Source of the DNA: Gammaproteobacteria bacterium
Lineage (GTDB): Bacteria > Pseudomonadota > Gammaproteobacteria > Arenicellales > JAJDZL01
Reading direction: 5' to 3'
Assembly (NCBI GenBank): GCA_022823625.1
Contig: JAJEHQ010000023.1
Span: 1 to 64,000, forward strand
DNA length: 64,000 bases
Shown here: piece after piece, positions 234-23,550 of the stretch
Numbering within the stretch: the first letter of the stretch is position 1
Layout: every line of letters begins with the position of its first letter
Notes under the pieces: model-generated
Seen by the model: the letters and a program-made list of their open reading frames with translations, nothing else
Database searches by the model: none
What the model was told of the DNA's origin: nothing
Made by a program: the position numbers and the translations under genes

Positions 234-1976
234 TTAGAGATTTACAGCTTCAATGTTCTCCTCTCCAAACCATTTGCGAAGCGTTTGCATGGCTACAGCG
301 GATAGCTGTTGGGTGAAAAGAACGGCCAAGCGCCTTTTCGGCCTTGAACAGGTGACGTAAAAAAGATTCCGATTTCGCTCGAATTTAGCATATTTGGTTT
401 CGGGTATGTGAGGATGCTCCGTTGCCAACTCAAGCATTTCGTTGAAGTTATAGCGATTCCAACCTCTGCCGATGACGACCACCACGTTCTCAAACTCAGC
501 GCCTTTTACCCCGTGTTTAGTCTCGAATGGAGAGTGACCCGATAAATACCGACACAGAGCAACAATTTCCTGATAAGGAATGGCACGAAGTTTATCCAGC
601 TCCTCCAGCGTTCGCGGCATATCCTCACCAGCCTCTGGATCGAACTCACGTAATTCGCGTTCGCGTCTTTCAACGGCATCGGGAACCCTCGGCCGACGTA
701 CCGCAAGCAAATGGTTGACCACTTCACCGACTGTCCCGCTTTTTCTTAGCTCGATGAGCTGGTCCATGGCATCTGACCATTTCCTTTTTTCTTGGTGAGA
801 TCGGATTGCTGGTACGTTAGATCCGAGTGCACGGAACATCTCTCCATAATTTCGTAAGAGATATGCCTCACAAGCCAATTCCAGTGTGTCCGCGAAATAG
901 GCGACATGCGGATGCTCCTTTTTGGTGAAGGACTCATTGAATGCAAATACCGAGGGAATGCTGGGATACCCTTGCATACCTGCAAGAACACGGTGGGTGA
1001 GCATTAGTATTTTGGTAAATTCGGGAGACAAGTCCCAATTCTCTAGGGTAAGACGATTGAGGACGGATTGTAGTGCGCGATCAGCGGCTTCGGAAGGAAG
1101 ATCGCCACTCCAGTGACTACCAGTCTGACGGTCACCTGTCCAGGTATTGGTGTGAAAGATGCGAACACTGCCTTCGTCGTTCGGATCGACAACAGACTGG
1201 GGTAGCTGGGGTCTCATTTTATTCAGGCGATCAACGACTGTTGAAACCGACCGAAAGTTCGCTTGCTTGCCGATAATTCTTAGACTTGAATGTTCTATCT
1301 GTCCGCATCCATCGCCGTAAATCTTCTGCCAATGGTCACCGAAGAAACCGAATTGCGGTGAGTTTTCCTGTCCTAAGAAGTGTTTTTTGATAGAGTTAAT
1401 CCAGTTGGCATTGGTGTCTTGGTATTCGTCGATCAATATGATTGGATACTTTTCAGTCAGAATTCGTCTGAATTTGGAGTTGTTCATGAGTTCGATGGTC
1501 AGGATGAGAACATCATCGTGATGGAGGGAAATACGATGGTCGTTCATGCTTCTGTATCCAAGCTCGTACTCAACGCGACGCTCCCCGAGGTCTCCGATTT
1601 CGGCGATTTTCTCGGGCCAATGCTTGAGTCCCGGCAATCGTTCCTTTAGTTGACGCTGGAAGCCGCCGATGAGCGACCAGCAGAATGCATGGATAGTATT
1701 ACAATAGATTAGAGGGCTGCGGTCTGTCCTTGCGTCAATCTCATCTTTTGCCACGTTCGTAAATGTTATGCAAGCAATTTTTTGATGCTGTGGCAGAATG
1801 TGTTGGTTATGGTCAATGAGGAAATTGAGAGCCTTAACGAGCGTGTATGTCTTTCCCGCGCCAGCACCAGCTTCGACGAGGAAGCTCTCCTTGTGCTCTA
1901 GGCATTGATATACCTCAGCAAGCGCTTTTCGGCTGGCTTCCTCGGCTGGGTTCAGGTGTTCTACGACCTCAATCAT
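234..1976 (-). CDS. gajB-like: UvrD/Rep-like helicase, GajB-like partner of an OLD nuclease (Gabija-like)
   Basis: Superfamily 1A helicase of about 580 residues. Visible motifs are the Walker A loop AGAGAGKT (residues ~36-43), motif Ia (CITFTNVAKDEI), the Walker B/motif II DEYQD (~183-187), motif III (FFGDHWQKIYG) and C-terminal motifs (HGVKGAEFENVVVV, FYVTCSRPKRR). I chose the ATG at 1976: it overlaps the stop of the upstream OLD gene by 8 nt and has a GGA element upstream, whereas an ATG 27 nt earlier has no ribosome site. A helicase directly downstream of and translationally coupled to a TOPRIM OLD nuclease is the Gabija architecture. It is longer than the well-studied GajB (about 490 residues). 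Expected role: DNA-end or nucleotide-sensing helicase that works with the nuclease. Family assignment is firm; the Gabija label is inference from the pairing. Confidence 0.82.
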   Translation of the reverse strand: MIEVVEHLNPAEEASRKALAEVYQCLEHKESFLVEAGAGAGKTYTLVKALNFLIDHNQHILPQHQKIACITFTNVAKDEIDARTDRSPLIYCNTIHAFCWSLIGGFQRQLKERLPGLKHWPEKIAEIGDLGERRVEYELGYRSMNDHRISLHHDDVLILTIELMNNSKFRRILTEKYPIILIDEYQDTNANWINSIKKHFLGQENSPQFGFFGDHWQKIYGDGCGQIEHSSLRIIGKQANFRSVSTVVDRLNKMRPQLPQSVVDPNDEGSVRIFHTNTWTGDRQTGSHWSGDLPSEAADRALQSVLNRLTLENWDLSPEFTKILMLTHRVLAGMQGYPSIPSVFAFNESFTKKEHPHVAYFADTLELACEAYLLRNYGEMFRALGSNVPAIRSHQEKRKWSDAMDQLIELRKSGTVGEVVNHLLAVRRPRVPDAVERRERELREFDPEAGEDMPRTLEELDKLRAIPYQEIVALCRYLSGHSPFETKHGVKGAEFENVVVVIGRGWNRYNFNEMLELATEHPHIPETKYAKFERNRNLFYVTCSRPKRRLAVLFTQQLSAVAMQTLRKWFGEENIEAVNL

Positions 1977-4020
1977 CGATAGAATTTTCCGGATCGGAGA
2001 CATCTACAACAGGGTTGGTTTGCGCAACTGCCGCATCTGAATAAGGTATACCGCCGCACGCCAGCCACCTTAGTCCATCGAGGATGTAACCAGGTGTGTT
2101 CCAGTTGGTTTCGTCAATTGCGTATTTAAGAGCAAACTGAGTCTTCTTAATCTTGTCGAGTTTTTCCCATGCGCACAGAGCTTTGTCCTCATGAGTACTA
2201 CCTTCGATTGTGAACATTGCTGGATTTGCAAGCATGAATGCGTCTTCGAAAGTACGGCCGCAGGGACCACCGTTAGCTTCGGGCTGCTGAAAGGCGATTC
2301 GTCGGAGATTCTGGATCTTGGAGCGGTCCTTTTTTATGATTAGTTCTGCTGGCGAGCAACCATCGCCATGATACCAAGTGTTGAGACAAGCGTTGCTACT
2401 GGCGGTTCCCTTATGAACCGGGCAGGCTACACCATTCTCGTTGACCGAATCAAGGTCTGTGATAATAAGAGTACGCAGTTCCAGGAAGTCGAGAAGGTCG
2501 AAAAAAATATGCGCATACGCGCCGCCGACTTCTATCGTCGTCATGTACTGGTTGGACAGCTTAGGCGCGTCGGGTTCGGCTAGTTCAAGCTTTTTAATAA
2601 TCACGGGTAGCAATAGACGCTCGCTCGTACCTTCGATCAATACAGCCTTGTCTGCGAAGAACAAATCGCACCGTGTCAGTGTTAGGTACTGATGGAGAAA
2701 CTTCCTGTGATCAGGTGGGGATTCGCGCATTCCTTCACGAAGGTCCTTGATTTTGGTGTGGCGAATGCCATCCACGGAGGTCGGAAGAAAATACCGAATC
2801 GTCTCGAAACCCGCGGCATTGGCGATGTGAGATGAATGTGTTGACACGATGAACTGAACCGGCCAAGTCAAACGAGCTTCTTCCTGACTACTAAGTTGCT
2901 TAGCAATTTTCGACACCTGACGGATGAAAACTTCCTGCATCTGTGGATGCAAATGAGCCTCTGGTTCCTCGATGAATACGAGATGGATGTTGGACAAAGT
3001 CTGTCGCGCGCGAAATGCGCGATAGAAGCTGACGATCTGAAGCAGGATAAATATGAGATTGCGTATCCCGAGGCCTGTATAGGACTCGGGTAGCAGGATT
3101 CCATGATGGCCTGCGTATCTCACCTTTGTGTGACGTGAAAGAAGGCGTTCAACGTCGAGTGTTGTCTCCGTCTCCAACTCGGAACCATCAAGTCCAGGAT
3201 AGCCGAATGTTTGCAATGTAGGCATCAGTTTCCGAAGCTCTTTTCGGAACCCGCCTTCGATCAATTTTTGAATTTCGTCGACAGCATCTTGAAGGGCCTT
3301 TGCAACAAATTGCTCTTCCTCATCAGCGGATGGCGATTTTGCTGCGATGAAGAGATCTTCCAAGATTTTAGCTAGAACATCGGTATCTCTAGATGTGTCG
3401 TCATCGAGTCCACGTTGTGCATTCACAAAACCCGTACTGAGGAGAGACCGGAGCGCACTCACGGGCATCTGCTTTTGGTTCGTGGGGTCGTTAGGATCTT
3501 CGGCCCATAGTTTGGTTGTGAAAAGAGAGGGTATGCGCTGACGCAAGTTCTGGAAGAAAACCAATCGGTCTTGGTCAGTCAAGTCTCCAGTCGGCTGGTC
3601 TGCAAAAAATACATCAATGGCGCCGTCGCGTAAACCATAGCGTGCGACGACTAGAGCTTCTTTGCAGTCGGGGTCGAGGTCAATGACGAAGTCGCTAAGT
3701 GCGCCAAGCTCCGGTTGTTCGGGGTCATATTCGACTAGTAATCGCAGCTCGATACTCGGAATTAAAGCACGAACTTCATCATCTTGCTGGCCCGCATTTC
3801 TGGCCTTGAGCGCTTCGCAGAAATCGTCATATGAACTAATTGAGAAGTCTTCAATCTGAAATCTCGGATTAGGGTCCATGAGAAATCGACGGATGACCTC
3901 GGAAAGCGATGTCTTTCCACTGTTGTTGCGGCCAACGATGAGAGTCGTTTGGTTTTCGAGCACCAAATTGGTGTCGGCCAAGAGGCGGAAGTTTTTGACT
4001 GTGACTCTATGGATGTGCAT
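1969..4020 (-). CDS. gajA-like: OLD-family ATPase with TOPRIM nuclease domain, GajA-like (Gabija-like)
   Basis: Class 2 OLD (overcoming lysogenization defect) protein of about 683 residues. Numbered from a possible GTG six codons earlier, it shows Walker A GRNNSGKTS (36-44), a degenerate ABC signature near GLGIRN (322-327), Walker B VFIEEPEAH (354-362), a switch-like STHSSH (399-404), then a TOPRIM domain starting at LIEGTSE (467-473, catalytic Glu) with the acidic DLD (528-530). I prefer the ATG at 4020 because the family typically begins with a strand resembling HIHRVTVKNFR. The family couples ATP binding to site-specific nicking or cutting of DNA, and in Gabija it degrades phage DNA when nucleotides are depleted. 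First gene of a two-gene operon with the helicase. Confidence 0.85.
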   Translation of the reverse strand: MHIHRVTVKNFRLLADTNLVLENQTTLIVGRNNSGKTSLSEVIRRFLMDPNPRFQIEDFSISSYDDFCEALKARNAGQQDDEVRALIPSIELRLLVEYDPEQPELGALSDFVIDLDPDCKEALVVARYGLRDGAIDVFFADQPTGDLTDQDRLVFFQNLRQRIPSLFTTKLWAEDPNDPTNQKQMPVSALRSLLSTGFVNAQRGLDDDTSRDTDVLAKILEDLFIAAKSPSADEEEQFVAKALQDAVDEIQKLIEGGFRKELRKLMPTLQTFGYPGLDGSELETETTLDVERLLSRHTKVRYAGHHGILLPESYTGLGIRNLIFILLQIVSFYRAFRARQTLSNIHLVFIEEPEAHLHPQMQEVFIRQVSKIAKQLSSQEEARLTWPVQFIVSTHSSHIANAAGFETIRYFLPTSVDGIRHTKIKDLREGMRESPPDHRKFLHQYLTLTRCDLFFADKAVLIEGTSERLLLPVIIKKLELAEPDAPKLSNQYMTTIEVGGAYAHIFFDLLDFLELRTLIITDLDSVNENGVACPVHKGTASSNACLNTWYHGDGCSPAELIIKKDRSKIQNLRRIAFQQPEANGGPCGRTFEDAFMLANPAMFTIEGSTHEDKALCAWEKLDKIKKTQFALKYAIDETNWNTPGYILDGLRWLACGGIPYSDAAVAQTNPVVDVSDPENSIDD

Positions 4021-4991
4021 CTTAAGGCTTAGTGCCACAGAATGGCGTAAAATCTCCCGAGTTTACTTTACATGACATGCTAACAGCGATCTTATTTTAT
4101 CTTGCGGTTTTCATGTATCTGACTTATTTGCCCGCCTACCGATAGTTCAGGTGACAAAATGACGTCAACCCTGTATAGCTTCAATTTCTTCTAATCGTGC
4201 GATCCGGTACATTGGGATGCCGCTATGAATATACTAGTATCCATCCAGTGTTAAACATTGAGCGATCATGTTCTTTGGTATCGCTGAGTAATGGGTGGGT
4301 CGAATTCATTTAATTCACAACATCCCTCAATTGCCTACCGTGCTCGAACAAGGACGTGATCGAAGCGGGGATCTTATTACTCACTCCGTGTCACCAAAAA
4401 TGTTGACATTTTTTGACAGCCAATTATGGGGACTTTTAAATCGTCATTTGCGAAATTTGAACGAACGCTTTGCCAAGTAGTTGGATGAAGTCGCCAACAG
4501 ATGCTGCTGCCACCGCTGTAGCTGTGTTATTCAGATACCAGTGGCGAATGAAAGAAGCCGGCAACGAAAACGATTCAGGGATTATGCATCGGCCGCTTTG
4601 GTTTTACGAGGTTATCTGTAAGAGACTGGCAACATCATAAGTATCGTACTTGTGGACACCATTCAAGCGCGCCTGGTGAGGCTGAAGATCATTTGCATTG
4701 AAAGTGCTTGATACAGCAGTGTGGATGCAAGCAACGGTTTAGTTTCCCTAACTATTCCGAATAAAATCCCCTAGGAAAGGTAAATGAAGATTTGCCTTTA
4801 TGCCCTTTAACGGGCACAAACGACAAGTTGCTCTATCTTTGGATTTCTTGGAGATTCAGATGGAACGTAACGACGAAAACGTGGAAGGAAAATTTGATGA
4901 TGCATGAACTGCGATCCGATGCTCTTTCGATCAAGGAGATAATGCTCAATTAGATGCGGATATTTGACATGGAATCTTTAAGTTAATAACT
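4021..4991. other. ~970 bp without a recognisable gene
   Basis: Separates the Gabija-like operon from the next gene. The plus strand has only short open frames broken by stops; one of 61 codons at 4295-4480 shows nothing familiar. A 10-bp palindrome lies at 4231-4240 without obvious context. The stretch 4760-4960 reads as broken coding-like sequence and may be a decayed gene, but I could not name it. Promoters of the flanking genes must lie here; no strong consensus was identified. Confidence 0.4.
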
Positions 4992-6773
4992 ATGACTAGC
5001 AGTTACCGAAATCCTATTACGATTGAAAATGCTATTATTCAAATAGTAGAACGCAAGTACCTATTACCTGCAATTCAAAGAAAGTTTGTTTGGGATAGTT
5101 CCCAGATTTGTGTTCTTTTCGACTCGATTATGCGTAAATATCCAATTAATACTTTTATGTTCTGGGAGGTCAAAGATGAGGATGTAATAAAGGACAACCA
5201 CTTTTACAATTTCCTTGAGAACTATTGTGAGCGTTTTGGGGAGAACAATAAAGAATTTGGAACTGAAGGACACAAAGATTTTTTCGCTGTGATTGATGGC
5301 CAACAGCGTTTAAACTCACTATATTTAGGGCTGAAAGGTAGTTACGCCTATAAACTCCCTAGAAAATGGTGGCCAAGTACTCAAGACGATGACATTCTTC
5401 CACCTCGAACTTTATACCTAAATTTGTGCTCTCCTATTGACGATGAATCAGAAGAAAATAAGATGTACTATGAGTTCAAGTTCCTTACTGAACATGAATT
5501 TCAATCTGACAAAAACAATGCAAAAAAATATTGGTTCAAGGTAGGAGAAATACTCAACTTTGAAGAACAAGATACTACCACAGATGTAGTTTTCTTTGTT
5601 AATCGAAAGTTGGCAGATTATGGCTTGTCTGAAAACGAGTACGCTTCAAAAACCTTATGTCGTCTCTATGAAGCAATTCGTTTAGATCAATCTATTCACT
5701 ATTACTGTGAATCGAAACAAAGCCTGGACCATGTCTTGGACATATTTCTTCGAACAAATCATGGTGGAACACATCTTTCATTTTCCGATTTGCTGATGTC
5801 TATGGCTGTGGCAAATTGGAAAAGTGATGCTAGGCAGAAAATTGACTTACTTGTCCAACAGGTTCAAAGTGGAAATAATATGGGGTTTACAATTGATCGT
5901 GATTTTGTTCTGAAGACATCATTAGTACTTACCGATGCAAATGTACAATTCAAAGTTAAGAATTTCACACCATCTACGGTTAGCGCTATTGAAGAAAATT
6001 GGAATCAAATTAGATATTGCGTCCTCGCCACATTTGAACTGGTAAAGTCACTTGGCTTTAACGACACTTCTTTGAGTTCAAAGAACGCTGTGATTCCAAT
6101 AGCATTTTATTTATTTAAACACGAACTATATTCGGAAATTAACAATAAAAGCAAACATGGCGATAATAGAAAAATCATTGCACAATGGTTGCACATGTCA
6201 CTTCTAAAGAGAGTATTCAGCGGGCAAAGTGACACAGTACTGAGAAATTTGAGAAATGTTATTGAGAAAAATTTGTTAATTGGGATGCAATTTCCTTTGA
6301 ATGAAATTATCGCTGAATTTCGAGGAACAAATAAAGACTTGAAATTCGACGACGAATTCATTGAAAGACTACTAGCTACACAAAAAAATGATCAATCTTG
6401 CTTTTCAATACTCGCACTTTTGTTCCCAGACTTAGACTATACACAATCTCTAGATATCGATCATCTTCATCCAGAAGATGCATTCAAAAAAATTGATGTT
6501 GGTGAAATTCCCCAGAACCAACTGACATTCTATGAGGATAGGGAAAATTGGAATAGTATTGTTAATCTCTGTCTTTTAAGCTCTTCAATTAACAGACAAA
6601 AAGGAAAGAAATCGCTTCACGATTGGATACAAAACCCCAACGTTGAAATTGGTCGCAATGATCTACTAATTCCTCCGCGAGTGGATTTAAGATTTAAATC
6701 ATTTAAAAAATTTGTCAAAGCTAGGAAATCTCACTTAACAAAAAGGGTTAAATTGCTGATCGGGGAAATTTAA
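4992..6773 (+). CDS. DUF262-DUF1524 fused protein, GmrSD-like type IV restriction enzyme
   Basis: 593 residues. The N-terminal DUF262 (ParB/sulfiredoxin-like NTPase) part shows LPAIQRKFVW (~27-36) and the hallmark VIDGQQRLNSL (~101-111), plus the family's NHGGTHLSFSDLL segment near 255. The C-terminal DUF1524 His-Me finger nuclease part shows DIDHLHP (~490), equivalent to the HxxP catalytic motif, and SSSINRQKGKKS (~540). GmrS and GmrD are the two halves of an enzyme that cuts modified (glucosylated hydroxymethylcytosine) DNA; fusions of both halves are common in defence islands. Target here is unknown. The gene is strikingly A+T-rich relative to the metabolic genes of the window, consistent with transfer. 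It stands alone, convergent with the ImmA-like gene. Confidence 0.82.
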   Translation: MTSSYRNPITIENAIIQIVERKYLLPAIQRKFVWDSSQICVLFDSIMRKYPINTFMFWEVKDEDVIKDNHFYNFLENYCERFGENNKEFGTEGHKDFFAVIDGQQRLNSLYLGLKGSYAYKLPRKWWPSTQDDDILPPRTLYLNLCSPIDDESEENKMYYEFKFLTEHEFQSDKNNAKKYWFKVGEILNFEEQDTTTDVVFFVNRKLADYGLSENEYASKTLCRLYEAIRLDQSIHYYCESKQSLDHVLDIFLRTNHGGTHLSFSDLLMSMAVANWKSDARQKIDLLVQQVQSGNNMGFTIDRDFVLKTSLVLTDANVQFKVKNFTPSTVSAIEENWNQIRYCVLATFELVKSLGFNDTSLSSKNAVIPIAFYLFKHELYSEINNKSKHGDNRKIIAQWLHMSLLKRVFSGQSDTVLRNLRNVIEKNLLIGMQFPLNEIIAEFRGTNKDLKFDDEFIERLLATQKNDQSCFSILALLFPDLDYTQSLDIDHLHPEDAFKKIDVGEIPQNQLTFYEDRENWNSIVNLCLLSSSINRQKGKKSLHDWIQNPNVEIGRNDLLIPPRVDLRFKSFKKFVKARKSHLTKRVKLLIGEI

Positions 6774-6873: not shown

Positions 6874-7758
6874 TTATTTCCTTCTTTTTTTCGATGGCCA
6901 TGGAAGAATTCCATCCAACTCCTCGAGTAAAGGATTTTCGTAATCTGAAAATTCAAAATCATATTCTTTCATGACAGGCAACTCCTCGTGAAACCAGATA
7001 AGCGAAAGACATTGACGCAACTCACGAATTACAATTGATTCTTCAATCATGAGTCGATGGTTTTTCACTCCATTGACAAACCATACATCTGAGGAGATTT
7101 CATCATTATCTTCTGCAGTTGTATCACTGTTCAATATCCGCTGGGCAACACTACCTTTGGGCACGAGGGTTCCAAATTGTATCCATCCGTTTAGTTCACG
7201 TAAAGAAGTTGACCTAGAAACATATCGAATTTTCCCATCTTCAATTAATACGAACGCACACGGAACATCGCAATTTACAGCAAAGCGTGACCCCGTACAT
7301 GTAATTGATGCTTTATATTTTTTTGCGAGTTCCTTTACGGAATTAAACGAAACATCAACATCACTTACATCTTTCTTGAAGAGGGCGAAAGGTAGCAGGC
7401 ATTCTGCGGCAAACACGTCACAGAAGATTTCCTCTTGTGGACGCTTTCGATAACTGATCAATTCGGATGTGGACAAGTTGGAACTATGGTGTATTGAAGG
7501 AAGATTAAGGATTATGTGAGCGATCTCATGCAGTATAGTGAATCGTTGGCGTTCTTCACTGTGGTTCCCGTTTATTGCAATGATGTGTTTGGAACTTGAA
7601 GGAAATGTTTGCCCAGATTCGTCATCATCAAAATCATGACTGATTCTGATTTTGGCATTTGCAGCTTTTGCGTATTGTTCGATATCTACTGGAATAGAAT
7701 CGACACCGACATCCTCAATGAATTGACGAGCTTTTAAGATTACTGACAGTTCTTGCAT
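6874..7758 (-). CDS. ImmA/IrrE-type metallopeptidase, possibly CapP-like
   Basis: 294 residues with the zinc peptidase signature HEIAHIILN (HExxH, about residue 77) and the downstream EEIFCDVFAAECLLP helix that supplies the third ligand in ImmA/IrrE peptidases. The family cleaves or antagonises HTH repressors, usually encoded next door; ImmA does this for the ICEBs1 repressor and CapP for the CBASS repressor CapH. It lies 5 nt downstream of the XRE gene in one operon, and that operon is divergent from the CBASS operon, which makes a CapP-like role in derepressing CBASS the leading idea. The C-terminal ~150 residues have no domain I recognise and could sense a signal. The peptidase family is firm, the CBASS link is inference. 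Confidence 0.8.
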   Translation of the reverse strand: MQELSVILKARQFIEDVGVDSIPVDIEQYAKAANAKIRISHDFDDDESGQTFPSSSKHIIAINGNHSEERQRFTILHEIAHIILNLPSIHHSSNLSTSELISYRKRPQEEIFCDVFAAECLLPFALFKKDVSDVDVSFNSVKELAKKYKASITCTGSRFAVNCDVPCAFVLIEDGKIRYVSRSTSLRELNGWIQFGTLVPKGSVAQRILNSDTTAEDNDEISSDVWFVNGVKNHRLMIEESIVIRELRQCLSLIWFHEELPVMKEYDFEFSDYENPLLEELDGILPWPSKKRRK

Positions 7759-7763
7759 TCAAT

Positions 7764-8141
7764 TTACTCGTCGTTCATTAACTTAGATAACTGCTCAGCT
7801 TTTGTTATCCATTCGTCGTGAGTTACAGGACGCCTGCCCCGAAAACTCATCTGTGCAAGCGGTGCCAATAGATCTAATGATTGATTCTCATCATAGAGAA
7901 ATACATCTATGAGTTGAGGGTTGGCTTGTATCCCAACAAGTGTGCGTAAAAGCTTTGCTCTATACGCAGATAGCTTCAAAGTTCGAACTAAAGAATCGAC
8001 CACATCGTCTGAAGGGGATGTTTTTTCATCTTTTTCCAGACGATAAATATAGGCGTGATCAACTTCACACAGTTTACTCAGTTCTCTAAGACTCAGATTG
8101 CGTTCTTCTCGAAACTTTCTCAAAGCATATCCAAATGACAT
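7764..8141 (-). CDS. XRE-family HTH repressor, possibly CapH-like
   Basis: 125 residues. A classic XRE helix-turn-helix occupies residues 1-65 (ALRKFREERNLSLRELSKLC, then HAYIYRLEKDEKTSPS). The C-terminal half, including GRRPVTHDEWITKAEQL, has no recognised domain and is where a partner peptidase could act. A strong ribosome site (AGGAGG, 5 nt from the ATG) sets the start. It is followed 5 nt later by the ImmA-like peptidase. Its promoter region is shared with the CBASS operon and contains a perfect inverted repeat, so autorepression plus repression of CBASS is likely. Confidence 0.82.
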   Translation of the reverse strand: MSFGYALRKFREERNLSLRELSKLCEVDHAYIYRLEKDEKTSPSDDVVDSLVRTLKLSAYRAKLLRTLVGIQANPQLIDVFLYDENQSLDLLAPLAQMSFRGRRPVTHDEWITKAEQLSKLMNDE

Positions 8142-8519: not shown

Positions 8520-9539
8520 TTGAATAGCGTCGGAAAACAGCAAGGTCAGTCAATACGCCGCATTCTCTCTATAGATGGAGGCGGAATACTGGGTACATTC
8601 CCAGTGGCTGTCCTTGCCGAACTCGAACAAAATCTTGAGCAACCAATTGTCTCATATTTTGATCTGATTGCAGGTACTTCAACAGGTGGTATTCTCGCTA
8701 TCGGTTTGAATATGGGACTTTCAGCATCAGAGTTGCTTGATTTCTACGAAAAACGAAGCTATGAAATATTCGGCCAGAATAATGGAAAGTTCGCAAACGC
8801 TTTATGTAGATATTTACAAGGTTTACATTGGATTTACCGCAGTAAATACCGTTCTGACGTACTACGAAACGTACTCAAAGACGCTCTTGGAGACAAAATA
8901 ATTGGCGACGCAAAGACCCGCATGATTATTCCAGCATGGAATTCTGTGGCGCAAGGCGTCTATATTTACAAAACAGCACATCACAAAAAATATAAAACCG
9001 ACCATAAATCATTAGCTCTAGATGCAGCACTCGCGACATCAGCGGCTCCGACATATTTCGCCAGTCATATCACTCAACAGGATGCGAGCCTTCTTGATGG
9101 AGGAATTTGGGCAAACAATCCTATTGCTATTGCCACCGTTGAAGCGATTGCAGTTCTTGGTTGGCCCCGTGAGTCGCTTCGGATATTAAGCCTTGGCTGT
9201 CTGAAGGAAGCCTATTCGATTCCGAAACGAGCCGGATTGGGTAATTTGGGTCCCAAGATTATTACGTTAACTATGGACGGTCAATCGCAAGGCGCGATGG
9301 GAATTGCAAAACTACTTACTGGTCACAAGTTCGATCGCACTGCAATATTTCGAATAGATCATACGGTTCCATTTAGCGCATACAAAATGGATGATACAAG
9401 TGTTGTTCAAGATCTCAAAGGACTTGGTCACGCAATAGCCCGCGAACGACTACCAGAACTCGAACCAATTTTCTTTCAAGAATTGGCTGAGAAATTTTTG
9501 CCTGTTCACGAACTTAATGAGAATACAAACAATGATTAA
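8520..9539 (+). CDS. capV: Patatin-like phospholipase, CBASS effector (CapV-type)
   Basis: 339 residues with all patatin signatures: the glycine-rich oxyanion loop DGGGILGTF (19-27), the nucleophile elbow GTSTGG (52-57, Ser54) and the catalytic Asp in LLDGGIWANN (Asp193). CapV enzymes are activated by the cyclic dinucleotide made by the neighbouring CD-NTase and hydrolyse membrane phospholipids, killing the infected cell. The start is a TTG at 8520: an in-frame TAA at 8511 rules out anything longer and no ATG lies before the oxyanion loop. It overlaps the CD-NTase gene by 8 nt. No transmembrane segment is present, as expected for a soluble effector that attacks the inner membrane. Confidence 0.88.
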   Translation: MNSVGKQQGQSIRRILSIDGGGILGTFPVAVLAELEQNLEQPIVSYFDLIAGTSTGGILAIGLNMGLSASELLDFYEKRSYEIFGQNNGKFANALCRYLQGLHWIYRSKYRSDVLRNVLKDALGDKIIGDAKTRMIIPAWNSVAQGVYIYKTAHHKKYKTDHKSLALDAALATSAAPTYFASHITQQDASLLDGGIWANNPIAIATVEAIAVLGWPRESLRILSLGCLKEAYSIPKRAGLGNLGPKIITLTMDGQSQGAMGIAKLLTGHKFDRTAIFRIDHTVPFSAYKMDDTSVVQDLKGLGHAIARERLPELEPIFFQELAEKFLPVHELNENTNND

Positions 9540-10716
9540 CGCAATTAAATACTCAAGATTTTTAAATAGTATTGCGGAAGAAATTGACATTTCCCCAAGT
9601 AAATATCAGGATGCAGTCAATCGCTACGAAGCGGTTGGACTCTGGCTTGAAAGAGGTGATTATGAAGAATTTTCAGACGAATTAACGATATACCCACAAG
9701 GCTCATTTCGGTTGGGAACAGTAGTTAGGCCGATAAAAAATGGTTTTGAATCCAGTTACGACATTGACTTGGTTTGTGAACTTCCAATGGACAAGGAAAT
9801 AGTTGCTCCGCGTTTAGTCAAATCGATAGTTGGTGATCGTATTAAGGAGCATGGAATATACCGACAATTACTTCAGGAAGAGGGGAAACGATGCTGGACA
9901 CTTGAATATGCAGAGGAAGATGGAATTGGCTTCCACCTTGACATTTTACCTGCAGTTCCAAACCCACTGACAAACGCCGATGCATCTATTGCAATTACCA
10001 ACAAGAGAGACTTTTCTTACAGTTGGTCAGCTAGCAATCCTAAAGGTTATGGGGTTTGGTTCGATAACAAAAATAGGTCTGCATTTGAATTCGTATTACA
10101 TGAACAGAAACAATCGATTCAGGCACGATCCCCAGATATTTTCTTGCGTGTCGAAGATGTTCCAAACCAACTCGTACGTACACCTCTTCAACGCGCAATT
10201 CAGTTAATGAAGAGACATCGCGACGTATATTTTGACGATCGACATTCAAATGAATATTCTCCAATTTCAATCGTAATTACAACCCTTGCTGGACACTTTT
10301 ATCGGAGCGAATTGGACACGTTTACAGCGTTAAGTAACATAGTAGACAGATTACATGCACACGCGGAACTTATTGCAAATCAATCAATCAATAGCACAAG
10401 TCCAATTAAACGAACTCAGGATGGAAAATGGTATATAGGAAATCCAGTAAACTCCAATGAAAATTTTGCTGAACGTTGGCATGAAGACAATCACGCACGG
10501 GCAATAGCGTTTTTTACTTGGATAGATGCTTTAAATAGAGACCTTGTCGAAATCATAAAGGAGACGCGTTCCGAAGACATACGTAAAATTCTTTCTACAT
10601 CATTGGGGATAGCCATTGCAACGGCTCATTTCGAATTAATTGTACCTGTAAGGTCTGAAAATATTGAAGTTCCAAAGATTCATATACCGCATGCGGCAAA
10701 GCCTTGGAGGGTTTGA
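9532..10716 (+). CDS. cdnX: CD-NTase (cGAS/DncV-like cyclic nucleotide synthase), CBASS
   Basis: About 394 residues. The nucleotidyltransferase core shows YPQGSFRLGT (helical GS motif, ~Ser58), the metal-binding pair in SYDIDLVCEL (~Asp77, Asp79) and the third Asp in FHLDILPAVP (~Asp137). These features define SMODS-type CD-NTases that make cyclic di- or trinucleotide messengers on phage infection. ATGs at 9517 and 9532 are both possible; I prefer 9532 because GAGAA lies 8 nt upstream and it overlaps the effector stop by 8 nt. The C-terminus (AAKPWRV) would be the site acted on by the E2-like partner in type II systems. The product nucleotide cannot be told from sequence alone. Confidence 0.88.
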   Translation: MINAIKYSRFLNSIAEEIDISPSKYQDAVNRYEAVGLWLERGDYEEFSDELTIYPQGSFRLGTVVRPIKNGFESSYDIDLVCELPMDKEIVAPRLVKSIVGDRIKEHGIYRQLLQEEGKRCWTLEYAEEDGIGFHLDILPAVPNPLTNADASIAITNKRDFSYSWSASNPKGYGVWFDNKNRSAFEFVLHEQKQSIQARSPDIFLRVEDVPNQLVRTPLQRAIQLMKRHRDVYFDDRHSNEYSPISIVITTLAGHFYRSELDTFTALSNIVDRLHAHAELIANQSINSTSPIKRTQDGKWYIGNPVNSNENFAERWHEDNHARAIAFFTWIDALNRDLVEIIKETRSEDIRKILSTSLGIAIATAHFELIVPVRSENIEVPKIHIPHAAKPWRV

Positions 10717-11457
10717 GTGGAAGACGAATTATTAAATCAAATCAAAGAACTTCAATGCGTACATGATGGTTTAATTCTTGTAAGGAAATCAGCAAGCGAA
10801 ACAGTTTTATCTGGCATATTGAATTTTGAAGCATCGGTTGATGGCTACGAAACAATCTCCAGTAGATTCGAAATTGATCTCATTGTTCCAATTGACTACC
10901 CAGAAACATTGCCGTGCGTTCGTGAAACTAGTAAAAAAATTGATAGTAATTACGATCACATAAATTCGGACGGTACATTATGTCTTGCAATCCCTATTGA
11001 GGAGCGGAGAGTTTTCTCAGAGCAACCATCACTTCTAGGATTTATAAATAGATTGCTAATCCCGTACTGTTATGGCTATTGCTACTGGAAAAAATACCAA
11101 ATTCATCCCTTTGGCGAAGCTGAGCACGGTTTCAAAGGAATTGTTCACTTTTATATGAACTCACTTCAATTGAAGGACGAAGTGTCTGTTTTATCTGTAA
11201 TTTCATACCTTTATGAACATGGTTATCGTGGACACCATCGGTGTCCATGTGGAAGTGATCAAATAGTTCGGAAGTGCCATGGAAAACTGCTACGTTCGCT
11301 CATAGAACAACACTCAACCCACACTCTAGAAAATGATTTTTTATCCATTCTTATCTATTGCTCGGAGAAAAATGAAAGAGAAGTGATCAAGATTCCAGAG
11401 CGTCTTCACAGACAAATACTTCGCATACTACAAACGGCACAGAAACAATGTCGTTAA
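10717..11457 (+). CDS. cap2-like: E2-like protein with SEC-C zinc motif (short type II CBASS ancillary protein)
   Basis: 246 residues. The N-terminal ~150 residues resemble a prokaryotic E2 fold: IDYPETLP (59-66), then HINSDGTLCLAIP with the putative catalytic Cys89 and His81 in an HxN-like position. The C-terminus carries a SEC-C zinc motif CPCGSDQIVRKCH (176-188). There is no E1 adenylation domain and no JAB peptidase gene nearby, which matches short type II CBASS, where a lone E2-like protein modifies the C-terminus of the CD-NTase and tunes its activity. The GTG start directly follows the CD-NTase stop, with GGAGG 6 nt upstream. The SEC-C addition is the unusual part; its role is unknown. 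Confidence 0.78.
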   Translation: MEDELLNQIKELQCVHDGLILVRKSASETVLSGILNFEASVDGYETISSRFEIDLIVPIDYPETLPCVRETSKKIDSNYDHINSDGTLCLAIPIEERRVFSEQPSLLGFINRLLIPYCYGYCYWKKYQIHPFGEAEHGFKGIVHFYMNSLQLKDEVSVLSVISYLYEHGYRGHHRCPCGSDQIVRKCHGKLLRSLIEQHSTHTLENDFLSILIYCSEKNEREVIKIPERLHRQILRILQTAQKQCR

Positions 11458-14716: not shown

Positions 14717-17173
14717 TCAATTATTAGTCACAATCATTCGCAGCCTTTCCTGCTGCTGCTTAATCCAGTCAGCAACCTCTGGCCATGAATCTTCGTCATC
14801 GCGCATCCATTTTTTCTGCACCGTGATAGTCCATCCTTTGTCACTGTTTTTCTCGATATCGTCTCCAAGAGTTTGATCACCCATCTGCCTTTGGATTAAC
14901 CAAGAATAGCGTTTCATTCGTTCAGAACTTGCTTTCGATCGCTGACTTTCTCCTGCACGGACATATAACCAAAGTAACTCGGGGTTTCCAATGTAAATTC
15001 CGATAATATCACCAAGCGAGTTAATGGAAGTAGTCCATTGTGACGGACCTCGCCAAGTATCTTTTTGTCCCGGAAGGCCACCGGTTTGTTTTTTAAGAAG
15101 CTTCCAAAATGCCTGGTATTCATTTGTCTCTGGAAATTCCACGTCAATACTGACACCACATCGTCTGCCCAATTCCCGACAGTGCTTTGCGCTAGTGGGA
15201 TAGTCTCGCATATATGGATACATCACATATTGTTCATGTCCTGGTATTGCGTGCATAGTGAGTGATCCGACTTTAGAGCCGGGTGGATAGACACTAGCCA
15301 AGTGAATATTTGGAATAATCGCTTCCCCAGTGAGTTTTTCAGCATTTGAGGAATCGTGGTTTAAGAGTGCTGCAGCAACATTCAAGACCATCTGACTTGC
15401 TACGTCTTCGGTTCGCCAAGACTCAGATTGAAATCGCCACCGCAGTCCACTAGCAAAGAGTTGTTTTACATCTTCAGTAGTTTCCAGTTCGTGCCACGGC
15501 CAGCGTTCCAATGCTCGATCAGCCAAATATTCAAAACGCTGATCAAGTGCACTCTCATTCCAATAATCAAATTTTGCAAGCTGTCGCGTGATGCCTATAG
15601 CACCCCTTTTATATACAGTTTTTTTCTGGCTAAATGGATTTGCACCCATTTCAGAATTAGTCTGATCGCCACTTAGAGTCAGATTAGAAAGGCAGTTGAC
15701 GTAGCGTTTGTGAATTTCATCAGCAGTGTCTCCTAATCCCAGTCTCCATTCATTTGTCATTTTTTGTGGCATCACATGTTCGATCGTCAATTGATCAGGT
15801 GAGGGAGTTTCCTCTCGATGATCTTGTTCTGCCAATGCGTAAAGTATTGCAAATGATGACTTCGTGGCACTACCCCCATAGGCTTTTCGAGTTTGGATTC
15901 CATTTCGAACTTCGTCGTCATTTGGAACACCTACGCGGGTGTTGCGTCGTTTGTGAATTTGACTCAGCCAGTAATCCGCAAGATCGTCACGCTCACTTGG
16001 CCCTCTCTCATGTGCGATTTCTGCAATAGCGGTATTCATTCCTGCTGTCGGTTTATCTGCTAACCACAATCGGGTAATCCATGAACTAATCCCCTTGAGT
16101 ATCTCTACTAATCCATCCTCATCAAAAGTTTCCTTGATCCGTTGATCTGACGCATCGTCAAGTAGACGAAGAGTTAGTGGTCGGTGGACATCAATCCCGA
16201 TAGCCCGCAGGTGCCGCAACTCGCGTTCGACTTTTTTATTGTGATGTTTACCTGCTGTTCCTGTTAGAATTCCATAGATATTTGCCAGACGAGCAAGTTC
16301 GTGACATAGTGCTGGACGCTTATTTAAATTTCCTTCGCGTACTGCCCATCGACGAAGATCTTCGTACGTTAAGTCAATTCCTCGAACCTCACCAGTTTGC
16401 CATCGCAAAAAGTCTCGTAAAAATTTGTCAATAGGCTCAGTTGAATATTTAGCGCCTAAGACCTCTTCAATTTTCAACCAATAATTGTCGTGAAGGCTTT
16501 GTTGCTCTTCATCTGGTAGCCCCATGAGTAACCAATTCTTCACTTTCTCGCTTTCTGTAAGAGGACGGCCGGTGGCGTTCAGGCTCTCAAAGATTTGCTG
16601 AGGATCTTCATGCTCGACCCCTATGCTGACTACTTTGAGTTTTGAAAGGCCCTTCAGTAGAAGGGCTACGTCATTTCGGGCAACTAATTGACGGGAAATT
16701 CTCCACGCTTGCGTAACAGCACCAACACCTCCAGGCTCACCTTCTAAACCTTGACGGTATTCCTCTTTGTCTCCATCTTGAAGTTTCAATTTAAGTCGTT
16801 TTTCGAGCGGTTTCTTCGGATTGGTTAGAAGATCGTCATAGATGTTTTCTGAGGTCCAGTCTCCGCAGTGCCCCGTATCTCCCAACTTATCCGCAATACA
16901 AGCCAGGAGAATGCTAACTGTGGTTAGTCTCTGCTGCCCGTCAACTACGCGTATGCTCTTTACTACTCCAGCCGGGCCACCTGGTTCTGGGAAAGTGAGA
17001 AGTGTGCCTCCGTAGTGCGTAATTTCTGAATCTTGTGATGCTACTGTCAACAAATCGTCAACCAGTCGTTCAATATCAGACTTGCCCCAACGGTACCGTC
17101 GTTGCCACCGCGGCACGACATATTGCACTTGACCATTAAAAAGTTGTAGAAACTCTATGCTTTGTGCCTGCAT
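14717..17173 (-). CDS. DUF262-DUF1524 fused protein with extra C-terminal domain (GmrSD-like)
   Basis: 818 residues, a second and unrelated-looking member of the GmrSD-like group in this window. DUF262 motifs: VVPRWQRRYRWGKSDIE (~19-35), VVDGQQRLTTVSIL (~76-89) and FESLNATGRPLTESEKVKNW (~190-209). DUF1524 motif: TIEHVMPQ (~462-469, HxxP) with LSNLTLSGDQTNSEMG after it. The last ~230 residues, rich in Trp and with LWLYVRAG, look like a DUF4268-like endonuclease-associated domain. Single gene, divergent from the DUF6998-like pseudogene. Expected to cut modified phage DNA; the specificity is unknown. Confidence 0.82.
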   Translation of the reverse strand: MQAQSIEFLQLFNGQVQYVVPRWQRRYRWGKSDIERLVDDLLTVASQDSEITHYGGTLLTFPEPGGPAGVVKSIRVVDGQQRLTTVSILLACIADKLGDTGHCGDWTSENIYDDLLTNPKKPLEKRLKLKLQDGDKEEYRQGLEGEPGGVGAVTQAWRISRQLVARNDVALLLKGLSKLKVVSIGVEHEDPQQIFESLNATGRPLTESEKVKNWLLMGLPDEEQQSLHDNYWLKIEEVLGAKYSTEPIDKFLRDFLRWQTGEVRGIDLTYEDLRRWAVREGNLNKRPALCHELARLANIYGILTGTAGKHHNKKVERELRHLRAIGIDVHRPLTLRLLDDASDQRIKETFDEDGLVEILKGISSWITRLWLADKPTAGMNTAIAEIAHERGPSERDDLADYWLSQIHKRRNTRVGVPNDDEVRNGIQTRKAYGGSATKSSFAILYALAEQDHREETPSPDQLTIEHVMPQKMTNEWRLGLGDTADEIHKRYVNCLSNLTLSGDQTNSEMGANPFSQKKTVYKRGAIGITRQLAKFDYWNESALDQRFEYLADRALERWPWHELETTEDVKQLFASGLRWRFQSESWRTEDVASQMVLNVAAALLNHDSSNAEKLTGEAIIPNIHLASVYPPGSKVGSLTMHAIPGHEQYVMYPYMRDYPTSAKHCRELGRRCGVSIDVEFPETNEYQAFWKLLKKQTGGLPGQKDTWRGPSQWTTSINSLGDIIGIYIGNPELLWLYVRAGESQRSKASSERMKRYSWLIQRQMGDQTLGDDIEKNSDKGWTITVQKKWMRDDEDSWPEVADWIKQQQERLRMIVTNN

Positions 17174-17354: not shown

Positions 17355-17918
17355 ATGGCTTTAAATCAAAATGATAACATGAAGCATATTGCTGACCTAC
17401 TTCATACTCGGAACACCATTGAAGTAAAAATCGCAAATATCATCGGAAGGCCAGCTGAACGTGGTCATATCGGTGAGTACTTAGCGAGCCTGATATTCGA
17501 TATCGCATTGGAGGACTCAGCGAATCATCCGGGAATCGATGGCTTTTTCAGGTCCGGTCCGCTTGCCGGGAAATCGGTTAACGTCAAGACTTACGGGAAA
17601 AGAGAAACAATTCTCGATATCCAGCCGAAATATTTGCCAGACTACTAACTGGTACTGGCAGGGCCTAAAACTGCCGCGTCGAGTTCAAAGGGAACCATTC
17701 GTCCGTGGGTCATTGATGAGGTTTTTCTGTTCGAAGCCAAACCACTGGTCAAGGAGCTTCGCAATAGCAATCTAAGAATTGGTACGGCTACTAGCGTCAG
17801 GCAATTTTACTGGGAGCGTGCTCGAATTTATCCTGTTTCATCCAATTCTCCACTGCAACTATCGAAGAGCCAACAAAATTGGATTCGTCTTTTCAAGGGA
17901 ATTGACTATTCGCGATAG
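17355..17918 (+). pseudogene. DUF6998-like gene interrupted by one in-frame TAA
   Basis: The frame runs 187 codons with one stop, TAA at 17646-17648. Before it: NIIGRPAERGHIGEYLASLI, then NHPGIDGFF and LAGKSVNVKTYGKRE; after it, in the same frame: LVLAGPKTAASS, FEAKPLVKEL, VRQFYWERARIYP and WIRLFKGIDYSR. The two halves read as one continuous small protein of the DUF6998 type (restriction-endonuclease-like), with the stop replacing a Tyr codon of a PDYYLVLAGP motif. Only one substitution separates it from an intact gene, so it is a recent loss, a sequencing error or a recoded codon. Confidence 0.75.
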
Positions 17919-18196: not shown

Positions 18197-19732
18197 ATGG
18201 TTCGTAAATTCCAAGTAAAGGATGACTGGCTGAACGGGAAACTCGCGATCGAGCCGCATAAGTCAAGCGGACAAGTAGAGGTGTTTTATATCCCATCTCC
18301 AATATTGTTGGCTGAGCATGACATATATCCCGATAATGCTGAGGACTACAAGAAGAAATTGATTGAATTCAGCACCAAATCAGGAAAGTTCTCAATTTAC
18401 CCAATAAATACAACAAGTCAAGGCGACAAATTTCTAAAACCAAAATACAACAAGATTAGAAAAATTACACTGGCTGACGGAACACCAGTTTTGTCTGAAA
18501 GTGGAGACGAAACTGATTTAGAAGGAGGATATGTTCGTTCGGTGACTTTCGGAAAAACGGAGCCGATCCAGCACAAAATAGACGAACAGGCAATTTCGAG
18601 TAGTCCGAATTCTGACGAGCAGATCATCAACATTCTTGAGAGTTTGCCACCTGCTTTTACCAAAGACTATGACTACGGTTTGGGTCTCGCGAATCGTTAC
18701 AGATTTATCGTGGAAGCAATAGAGGAACTCACGAATTGTACAGAAATAGAGATATCGAAGCACTGCGAAACTGAAGTTGATGAAGTGAAAGGGCTATTTC
18801 ATATCAATAGTTCCGACTTCGAAATAGTGCGCAAAATGTTGAATGCGACAACGCACTTGGGACAAGTTGCGGGACGCACTGTAAAGCAAACAGAGACGTA
18901 TAACTTCTTTGCAGAAATACTTGGTCAGAAGACAATTACTCTCAACATGGGGCGTCATCGGTTGCGCAAGCTCTTCACGGCAGCAATTCACAATGACAAA
19001 TTAATATTGTCGGACGCAGAGCAGGAAGAAATCGTAAATACCGTCATTCGGAATGTGAAGTCTATTTCCGAGAGTAAACCGGAAAGGCTGATACGATTGC
19101 AAAATGATCTGGAACTTGCAAATCTTGAAAGCTTCATTGACCGATTTCGTTCAATGATCAATTCAAATCTAGTTGAAAGCAAATGGCAGAAGTTTTTCCA
19201 TACGAATCCACTTGTTTTGAGTCTGGCCTTTGGCTATCCAATAATCAAAATTGGGCAACAGGCATCAGTTGGAGGAAGAAAAATATTTGGCGGCGGTGAG
19301 AAAATTACCGATTTCCTGATGAAAAACAAAGTGACGAATAATGCTGCGATAGTAGAAATTAAGACACCTCGCGCGAAACTCGTACAGAGGGAAGTACGTA
19401 GTGGCGTATTTTCGCCTTCCCGCGAAATTTCGGAAGGCATTGTTCAAGCACTTGATCAGAGGTTTCAGTTTCAAAGCGAAATTTTCATGATAAAGGGTAA
19501 AAGTGGAATATACGATCTTGAAACCTATTCTGTTCAATGTTACTTGGTGATTGGAACCATTCCGACCGAGAAGGAAGAACAGAAGTCGTTTGAATTGTTC
19601 AGGGGAAATTCGAAGGATGTCCAGATTATCACATTCGACGAACTGTTGGAAAACTTGACTCAACTGAAGGAACTACTGGCATTGTCGGAAAAAGACAGCA
19701 ACGAGTTGGGTGAGAGAAAGGTGCTTTTCTGA
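18197..19732 (+). CDS. sduA: Shedu nuclease SduA (DUF4263)
   Basis: 511 residues. The C-terminal ~180 residues form the DUF4263 nuclease: ITDFLMKNK (~371-379) and AAIVEIKTPRA (~385-395) supply D-x(n)-ExK, followed by EISEGIVQALDQRFQF and ITFDELLENL. The N-terminal ~300 residues have no named domain and are variable in Shedu, where they are thought to sense the phage or its DNA ends. GGAG lies 4 nt before the ATG. Shedu is a single-gene anti-phage system that acts as an oligomeric DNA nuclease. Family assignment is strong on the C-terminal motifs. Confidence 0.85.
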   Translation: MVRKFQVKDDWLNGKLAIEPHKSSGQVEVFYIPSPILLAEHDIYPDNAEDYKKKLIEFSTKSGKFSIYPINTTSQGDKFLKPKYNKIRKITLADGTPVLSESGDETDLEGGYVRSVTFGKTEPIQHKIDEQAISSSPNSDEQIINILESLPPAFTKDYDYGLGLANRYRFIVEAIEELTNCTEIEISKHCETEVDEVKGLFHINSSDFEIVRKMLNATTHLGQVAGRTVKQTETYNFFAEILGQKTITLNMGRHRLRKLFTAAIHNDKLILSDAEQEEIVNTVIRNVKSISESKPERLIRLQNDLELANLESFIDRFRSMINSNLVESKWQKFFHTNPLVLSLAFGYPIIKIGQQASVGGRKIFGGGEKITDFLMKNKVTNNAAIVEIKTPRAKLVQREVRSGVFSPSREISEGIVQALDQRFQFQSEIFMIKGKSGIYDLETYSVQCYLVIGTIPTEKEEQKSFELFRGNSKDVQIITFDELLENLTQLKELLALSEKDSNELGERKVLF

Positions 19733-20245: not shown

Positions 20246-21319
20246 ATGAACAAGGATGAACCATTTAAACGGCTAGTAGAGAATGCTATGGATTTTCTTT
20301 CTCATTCCATCGACGAGTTCAAAGAACATCCGAAATTCTCAGTTATACACTTCCACACAGCCGTTGAACTTTTTCTAAAATCCCGTCTCATGGCAGAGCA
20401 TTGGTCTTTGGTTGTGTCAAATCGAGGAGACTCAGATTGGGAAAAGTTCATAGTCGGAGATTTCAGATCTGTGACCCTGATTGAAGCTGTCGACCGACTA
20501 AACAAAATCATACGCAGCGGATTCAGCAAAAAAGATCTCAAAACTTTCAAGTCACTGACTAATCATCGAAATAAGATAGTGCATTTTTTCCATGAATCTG
20601 ACTCTGAAGAAGGAAACGAAAAGCTACGTGAAGCTATTGCAAAGGAGCAACTCACAACTTGGTATTTACTTCACAAAGCACTAACCGACCGATGGTCTAA
20701 CGTGTTCTCGCCTTGGTTTGTCAATCTCAATGAAATTGATTCTCGTTTGCGCACCCATCGAGAATTTCTTCAAGTAATTTTCGATCAAAAGATGCCTGAA
20801 CTTGAGAATTTCAAACAGCACGGATATATATTTCGAAATTGCCTCACTTGCGAATTCCCTTCTCAAAAAAACATTGATGAGATTGGTAAACTGTACGAGG
20901 CTGAATGCATTGTTTGTGGTTTCACTGAGAATTGCATAACGATTGCATGTCCCGAATGTGAACAACCAATTGTGTTTCGTAATGAGGGGTTTGGTAAATG
21001 CGAAAATTGCAATCATAGCTTTGACCCCAATTCTTTAGCAGAAGAACTCGTAGATGACCGCAACACCTATATCGCTAGATTAGAAGGCGATGACTCCTGG
21101 CAATTTGGTAGTTGCGGTGAGTGTGACGGATTTCACACAGTTGTTCGCCTCGACAAAGAAGGAAACAATTATCTTTGTACCACTTGTTTTGGTGAATTTG
21201 ATTCCATGGAAACTTGTGGATGGTGCCATGAGCTTAATACTGGTGATATGGCTGATAGCTACTGGTTTGGATGTGGCATTTGCGGTGGAAAAGGCATCGA
21301 TTACGAGCTAAGTTATTGA
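20246..21319 (+). CDS. HEPN-domain protein with four tandem zinc ribbons
   Basis: 357 residues. The N-terminal ~130 residues are helical and resemble HEPN domains: FHTAVELFLKSRLM near 36-49, then LTNHRNKIVHFF (105-115), which supplies the RxxxxH ribonuclease motif (Arg108, His113). From about residue 198 on there are eight CxxC pairs (CLTC, CIVC, CPEC, CENC, CGEC, CTTC, CGWC, CGIC), enough for four zinc ribbons, a nucleic-acid or ribosome-binding array. HEPN RNases are common effectors of abortive infection and toxin-antitoxin systems. No antitoxin gene adjoins it. The gene lies between two imperfect direct repeats and just after Shedu. The defence role is inference. Confidence 0.7.
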   Translation: MNKDEPFKRLVENAMDFLSHSIDEFKEHPKFSVIHFHTAVELFLKSRLMAEHWSLVVSNRGDSDWEKFIVGDFRSVTLIEAVDRLNKIIRSGFSKKDLKTFKSLTNHRNKIVHFFHESDSEEGNEKLREAIAKEQLTTWYLLHKALTDRWSNVFSPWFVNLNEIDSRLRTHREFLQVIFDQKMPELENFKQHGYIFRNCLTCEFPSQKNIDEIGKLYEAECIVCGFTENCITIACPECEQPIVFRNEGFGKCENCNHSFDPNSLAEELVDDRNTYIARLEGDDSWQFGSCGECDGFHTVVRLDKEGNNYLCTTCFGEFDSMETCGWCHELNTGDMADSYWFGCGICGGKGIDYELSY

Positions 21320-22550: not shown

Positions 22551-22856
22551 GTGAATTTTCAACAACATAACCCACCGCACCCTGGTGAGTTGATTCAGCG
22601 TACCTATATTGATCCATTTAATGAGATGACCGTAAACGGAATCTCAGACAAATTGGGAGTAGCTCGTAGTACGTTTAGTCGGCTGTTGAACGGTCAGTCT
22701 AGCGTTTCCCCAGAAATAGCCGTTCGACTTTCTACAGTGCTTGGTGGTTCGCCTGAAAGTTGGCTGTCGCTACAAGGAAGTTTTAATCTGCACAAAGCGC
22801 GTCAGATAGTTGACGCAAGCGGATTAGAGCGGATTGACTTCAGTCAGGTTGAGTGA
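22551..22856 (+). CDS. higA: HigA-family antitoxin, orphan
   Basis: 101 residues with the full HigA layout: NPPHPGELIQRTYIDP at the start, then an HTH (GISDKLGVARSTFSRLLNG) and SPEIAVRLSTVLGGSPESWL. The start is a GTG at 22551 with GAGG 10 nt upstream. HigA normally follows a higB toxin gene; here the upstream sequence is the divergent relE relic, and nothing resembling higB is present on either side. It may be an anti-addiction orphan or have been left by deletion of the toxin. Confidence 0.85.
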   Translation: MNFQQHNPPHPGELIQRTYIDPFNEMTVNGISDKLGVARSTFSRLLNGQSSVSPEIAVRLSTVLGGSPESWLSLQGSFNLHKARQIVDASGLERIDFSQVE

Positions 22857-22904: not shown

Positions 22905-23330
22905 TTATTCGATTCCAGTAAATGGATTAAGTAGTCGAACACCTGTATCTTTGAAATGAGAGGTATTTCTTGTAACCACGCATAGATCATGTGTCAGTGC
23001 TGTAGCAGCGATTTGCTTGTCATGTGAATTCTGATGGTGAGGTACACGCAGACAGCCCCACACCTGTGCTTCGAGTTCAGTGAAAGATAGGAGGTGATCG
23101 CGATACTCTCTCGTAACTTCCCCGAGCCATGTTTCCAGCAGGTTTGCTTGATCATGATCGCCACGATACCGGATCATTTCAACGCCGCGTCTCAACTCAC
23201 CGATTGTTATGACGCTCAGATAGATCTGCTGGTTGTTTTTCGCCGTCTCTGATAAAAAAAACTGAACACCTCTGTTGATTTTTGACTTCTTTCGAAATTC
23301 GCTGACAATATCGGTGTCAAGTAAATACAC
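22905..23330 (-). CDS. vapC: PIN-domain toxin VapC/FitB
   Basis: 141 residues. PIN-domain motifs are complete: LLDTDIVSEFRKK (Asp residues at the start), TIGELRRGVE (Glu), HDKQIAATAL (Asp) and VVTRNTSHF. The best start is the GTG at 23330, which overlaps the antitoxin gene by 14 nt and puts the first catalytic Asp at residue 5; a longer frame to 23408 would add 26 residues of antisense-like sequence. VapC toxins cleave tRNA or rRNA when the antitoxin is degraded. The locus appears intact. Confidence 0.87.
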   Translation of the reverse strand: MYLLDTDIVSEFRKKSKINRGVQFFLSETAKNNQQIYLSVITIGELRRGVEMIRYRGDHDQANLLETWLGEVTREYRDHLLSFTELEAQVWGCLRVPHHQNSHDKQIAATALTHDLCVVTRNTSHFKDTGVRLLNPFTGIE

Positions 23331-23550
23331 TGTTCGGAGACTCGTCTTCCACGCGTGAAAAATCGTCATCACGTCCCACTGGCGGGATCGATTGAATGAC
23401 TTCCTCAAAGCTTCTTCTTCGGGGAGTCAACAACACATCTGCCAACAAATTTCGATGTTCGGCTTCCGCGCTAATGCCTTTTCTTCCAGCTCGAAATTTC
23501 AAAGCTCTTACAATTTCGTCATCAACGTTTCGTACGATTAAATTTGCCAT
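23317..23550 (-). CDS. vapB: FitA/VapB ribbon-helix-helix antitoxin
   Basis: 77 residues. The RHH DNA-binding fold is visible in MANLIVRNVDDEIVRALKFR followed by GISAEAEHRNLL, a pattern typical of FitA-like antitoxins. The C-terminal tail (RVEDESPNSVFT) would wrap the toxin. It overlaps vapC by 14 nt, so the two are translationally coupled and autoregulated from one promoter upstream of 23550. Confidence 0.88.
   Translation of the reverse strand: MANLIVRNVDDEIVRALKFRAGRKGISAEAEHRNLLADVLLTPRRRSFEEVIQSIPPVGRDDDFSRVEDESPNSVFT

Follow-up and report, generated by a model that had tools for sequence, protein, structure and literature searches.

The closest described relatives of the protein analysed here are those catalogued as HEC-08, a family that reportedly goes back to a preprint by Payne et al. 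The letters HEC stand for Hma-embedded candidate (PMC12988326; PMC12111858). According to these sources, resistance has been confirmed for HEC genes, HEC-04 being active against T4 and T5 (PMC12111858), and several of them, HEC-06 included, have been validated (PMC12988326). A second relevant group is the EC042_2821 family of HEPN proteins, which has a conserved Rx4-6H motif and overlaps DUF3644. Its fusions to zinc ribbons were tabulated in 2013 and it is found in restriction-modification (R-M) operons (PMC3710099). The same work characterizes the HEPN site as a conserved Rx4-6H motif after helix 3, with a polar residue following the arginine and an Ex3[KR] motif further upstream (PMC3710099). 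One-protein HEPN defence systems also exist, e.g. DS-11 (CBS-HEPN), in which mutation of the HEPN site abolishes defence (PMC13092281).

The gene we describe lies in a window of 64,000 nucleotides of gammaproteobacterial DNA, at 20246..21319 on the forward strand. It starts with ATG and encodes 357 amino acids, in which we recovered both the RxxxxH core and the eight CxxC pairs that had been read from the sequence, and both are conserved in relatives. The protein matches the PADLOC profile HEC-08 (PDLC04162) from residue 4 to 349, on profile positions 13-352 of 358 (E 4.1e-93), and the same profile matches 94/94 of the relatives scanned. The PADLOC DUF3644 model matches residues 2-154 (E 3.9e-54); the Pfam DUF3644 model (PF12358) scores 13.6 bits, under its gathering cut-off of 27.6, no other Pfam family rises above its cut-off, and NCBIfam gives no match. 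The phage family phrog_37794 of PHROG (function unknown) matches over the full length and homologues are carried by viral contigs; a tblastn search of a phage record collection gave no match. Searching genome contigs with the single sequence returned no relatives, and an alignment query returned 105.

The sequence-only reading had taken the joining of a HEPN core to four zinc ribbons for an unusual architecture. We find that it is not new, because it is catalogued as HEC-08 and because a HEPN-zinc ribbon fusion was already tabulated in 2013 (PMC3710099). The resemblance to HEC-08 extends over the full length and to the same two-part architecture; the likeness to the EC042_2821 family is by published description, and members of that family are also fused to wHTH and REase domains. 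We also asked whether HEC-08 might be the ibfA gene of ColIb and rejected this: among the genes annotated in the first 25 kb of NC_002122 none is recognizable as ibfA, and this record is absent among the plasmid matches listed. No new kind of system comes to light here. The gene is one more member of HEC-08, and its product is a probable RNA-cutting anti-virus protein of an already catalogued defence family.

An AlphaFold2 model of the full protein, built on a 94-sequence alignment, has a mean pLDDT of 91.5. Residues 1-156 (20246..20713, +) are predicted to form a HEPN domain. Their best VIA-align matches are 1o3u (Z 11.1), 2hsb (10.5) and 1ufb (10.4), with rmsd values of 2.5-3.0 over 118-124 residues, followed by the HEPN domain of sacsin (9.9), HepT (6m6w and 7bxo, both 9.0), Csm6 (8.6) and AbiV (8.1); for helical bundles, a Z below about 13 may reflect a common arrangement. 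A Foldseek search of the whole model against the PDB gave no match with E < 0.001. Despite the modest Z-scores the predicted fold assignment stands, since the top matches are specifically HEPN structures and the motif lies where a HEPN domain requires it. In the model, RNKIVH (R108-H113; 20567..20584, +), a HEPN catalytic-type motif, closes helix 95-114, and the acidic/basic pair E41xxxK45 (20366..20380, +), an instance of Ex3[KR], sits on the second helix, 29-51. These are the active-site positions of HEPN proteins (PMC3710099). The modelled fold and the motif together are those of the RNase-type HEPN superfamily, to which the protein can be assigned as a putative RNase. Structure prediction had been suggested as a check on the HEPN call, and the call came through it.

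The active site is strongly conserved. E41, K45 and R108 are present in 111/111 aligned relatives and N109 and H113 in 110/111, although most of the 111 were retrieved with the pattern HRN.VHF, so the counts for R, N and H are biased in this set. We therefore checked the homologues found by plain tblastn, a retrieval free of the motif, and RNxxxH is kept in 8/8 plasmid homologues and in 5/5 actinobacterial homologues that share ~24-36% identity over the matched part. Arg108 and His113, singled out beforehand as the residues whose conservation would matter, are therefore retained in these sets as well.

Behind the HEPN domain a predicted two-helix joint (residues 151-191; 20696..20818, +; model helices 151-169 and 172-191) leads to the four zinc ribbons, with all eight CxxC pairs lying between residues 199 and 346. 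Ribbon 1 (C199/202 and C221/224; 20840..20917, +) has invariant cysteines where it is present, and it is missing from actinobacterial cousins. The cysteines of ribbon 2 (C235/238 and C252/255; 20948..21010, +) are found in at least 110/111 relatives, those of ribbon 3 (C290/293 and C311/314; 21113..21187, +) are kept except in truncated or gapped members, and those of ribbon 4 (C324/327 and C343/346; 21215..21283, +) are kept except in a few members. Each of the 16 paired cysteines occurs in 105-111 of the 111 aligned relatives, and the spacing from pair to pair is near-constant (medians 18, 10, 13, 32, 15, 9 and 15), so the eight-pair pattern is not a product of chance. A 17th cysteine, C230, is unpaired with the CxxC set and is not conserved. 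The number of ribbons is variable, since the actinobacterial cousins lack ribbon 1 and still keep an unchanged HEPN site: four of them (L122, L123, L125 and L126) have three ribbons and one (L124) has two.

Zinc ribbons commonly bind nucleic acid, and it is conceivable, if unlikely, that here they bind RNA or the ribosome and so bring the HEPN RNase to a particular RNA, with the trigger lying elsewhere. The ribbon profiles do show a weak resemblance to ribosomal uS14 and eS27 and to the RPB12 ribbon, and ribbons 3-4 are weakly like ribosomal zinc-ribbon chains in structure (Z about 3.0-3.6, 54-64 residues aligned). However, these likenesses are no closer than any zinc ribbon would show: the ribbon half, which models well alone (pLDDT 92.0), draws only generic weak zinc-ribbon matches from Foldseek and VIA-align. 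In addition, this half is acidic in 92-99% of family members, and with the cysteines set aside it is the least conserved part, with a mean pairwise identity of 0.18-0.26 against 0.41 for the HEPN half, the opposite of what a conserved RNA target would lead one to expect. The acidity and the fast variation make direct binding of RNA or the ribosome less likely. Of the earlier proposal of an RNA- or ribosome-targeting nuclease, the putative nuclease part fits the intact HEPN catalytic-type motif; it is the targeting part, which depends on RNA binding by the ribbons, that suffers.

The gene stands in a dense defence island, which we annotated with PADLOC and Pfam. From the left edge of the window, this island contains Gabija GajA/GajB (234-4038, -), HEC-05 (4992-6773), CapP with a helix-turn-helix gene (6874-8141), a CBASS system with patatin effector, cyclase and E2 (8520-11457), CoiA-like and HNH genes, and a GmrSD of the HEC-06/Orf5-like type (14717-17173). 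Next comes Shedu SduA (18197-19732, +; PADLOC SduA E 1e-136, Pfam SduA_C 8.3e-25), so the earlier placement beside Shedu inside an island was accurate. SduA is a separate gene that ends 513 bp upstream of the HEC-08-type gene and is no part of it. A promoter scan upstream of the HEC-08-type gene gave scores no better than those of shuffled sequence. Between GmrSD and Shedu, an ORF of 97 aa (17355-17648) aligns with DUF6998 positions 27-79 of 136, under the Pfam cut-off, and looks like a truncated gene. Downstream of the island are a helix-turn-helix gene (22551-22856, +) and a PIN-domain gene (22905-23408, -). HEC-05, HEC-08 and the HEC-06/Orf5-like GmrSD share this one island without Hma, none of which was found in the 64-kb window.

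Elsewhere the family does occur in the setting that its name describes, the one in which it was discovered, although an individual copy need not lie there to belong to it. About 14 fetched loci place the gene in an Hma operon, with HmaA upstream and HmaB downstream, or whichever of the two the contig retains; the operon order is hmaA-[HEC-09]-HEC-08-hmaB, and HmaB lies directly downstream in 13 loci. This linkage is specific enough to stand without a random-gene control of the neighbourhood counts. The nearest relative (L012, 64-65% identity) is truly Hma-embedded: it sits between hmaA, the last 4 bp of which are shared with its start, and hmaB, which begins within a few bases of its end. Unlike this relative, the window copy is outside Hma and follows Shedu alone. 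In nine Hma loci the gene directly upstream is HEC-09 (e.g. L025 7371-7988 and L033 1926-2543), whose product has a NYN domain (Pfam NYN E 6.7e-10); HEC-09 is thereby another gene of RNase type at this position. We considered HEC-09 as a required antitoxin and rejected this role, because HEC-09 is absent from most HEC-08 loci.

Three prophage-type loci (L051 6736-11997, L054 6713-11094 and L097 6680-11868) carry the gene between a ParB-methyltransferase gene and putative terminase-subunit genes, a position that has the look of a site for accessory genes within the packaging region. PrrC is an anticodon nuclease inside a type I R-M locus, and by analogy HEC-08 might guard DNA-modification systems, Hma and the prophage ParB-methylase among them, either watching over such a system or being silenced by it, and be freed when a phage inhibits the guarded system. 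The HmaB gene directly downstream in those 13 loci, the methyltransferase directly upstream in the three prophage-type loci and the R-M genes that adjoin HEC-08 in one plasmid locus are what this reading can draw on. We nevertheless think it improbable. Most copies, that of the window included, have neither Hma nor a ParB-methylase next door, and the window genome has no convincing HmaB, only a weak 36-residue match, so an Hma or methylase partner cannot be required. As a general rule, guarding of R-M systems was rejected, as recurrent methylase neighbours are missing from most copies.

The HEC-08 gene is a patchy, mobile, single-gene unit. The family ranges over Proteobacteria, Spirochaetota, Actinomycetota, plasmids and prophages; it was found in 0/108 other genomes searched from the order of the window genome and in 2/368 other genomes from its class. 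Plasmid copies adjoin CBASS, Qat, AbiJ and MNT-HepT genes. On enterobacterial plasmids a cassette of relB(E), HEC-08 and IS26 recurs (L010 4889-7991 and L130 4176-6991), once by qnrS1 and tet(A), and may spread with resistance genes. An IncHI2A plasmid (L127 3001-4129) has its copy cut off by IS26 after ~116 residues, and many plasmid matches are as short as this one.

Such a gene could in principle be regulatory or inert cargo, comparable to the HEPN-fold proteins whose RNase activity was lost (the MtlR subset and GlnD-type proteins). HEPN folds without a catalytic motif do exist (PMC3710099), and the literature that we searched, which did not extend to the source preprint, yielded neither activity data for the family nor a statement of a phage test of HEC-08 by name. 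However, hardly any change is seen in the Ex3K/RNxxxH site even among distant members, and the gene moves together with mobile elements and defence systems; we regard inert or purely regulatory cargo as very improbable.

HepT belongs to the HEPN-MNT toxin-antitoxin system. The window protein resembles it in its predicted HEPN fold and its Rx4-6H site, but it has extra zinc ribbons and no MNT nucleotidyltransferase antitoxin was found among the neighbours scanned in the window. Nor was any McrBC present among the window genes scanned, as a CoCoNuT of type II/III (cnuHE in an operon with a McrBC-type GTPase) would have. Across the family, any gene that recurs beside HEC-08 away from the Hma operons does so in a few loci at most, which bears out, as far as the neighbourhoods were examined, the early statement that there is no cognate antitoxin. 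In consequence the protein, if active, needs to be self-inhibited or triggered, and this part of the sequence-only reading is supported too. Its functional guess was largely right.

With slightly more confidence than doubt, we favour the view that HEC-08 is a stand-alone anti-phage protein, a one-gene abortive-infection RNase in which the ribbons are sensor and clamp and the HEPN domain is the effector. The HEPN half would act as a metal-independent RNase in a putative dimer, probably pairing two RxxxxH motifs. In uninfected cells the ribbon half would hold the HEPN domain off. On infection it would bind something made by the phage, or a host protein that the phage has altered, and release the HEPN domain, which may then cut tRNA, mRNA or rRNA, so that translation would stop and the infection would be aborted. 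An antitoxin would not be needed, as the protein would carry its own control. The analysis shows the predicted fold, the intact active-site residues, the order of the domains, the mobility as a single gene and the defence context; the RNase activity, the dimerization, the self-inhibition and the abortive outcome are our inference. Csm6 (CARF-HEPN) and the two-component AbiV are infection-switched HEPN RNases, but have a CARF ring-nucleotide sensor or a partner protein where the window protein has zinc ribbons. DS-11 has the organization proposed here, a single protein with a HEPN effector and an attached sensing domain, although this is a CBS domain and the family is a separate one.

The ribbons are favoured as the sensor because an acidic, fast-changing surface fits the sensing of proteins better than the binding of a conserved RNA. 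That said, their variability may only reflect the tolerance of small zinc domains to change. A more specific version, which we hold to be doubtful, is that the acidic, fast-evolving ribbons directly recognize diverse phage proteins, or mimic nucleic acid and so bait phage nucleic-acid-binding proteins, and thereby unclamp the HEPN RNase. If this were true, the number of ribbons, mostly four and three or two in the actinobacterial members, would be a modular part that retunes specificity.

In summary, fold, active site and context back the view of HEC-08 as an RNase-type HEPN effector that carries its own zinc ribbons. Our analysis proposes a testable division of labour, in which the conserved HEPN domain would be the effector and the variable acidic ribbons the sensor. 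As the family is widespread, HEC-08 is a sensible target in the search for phage triggers.
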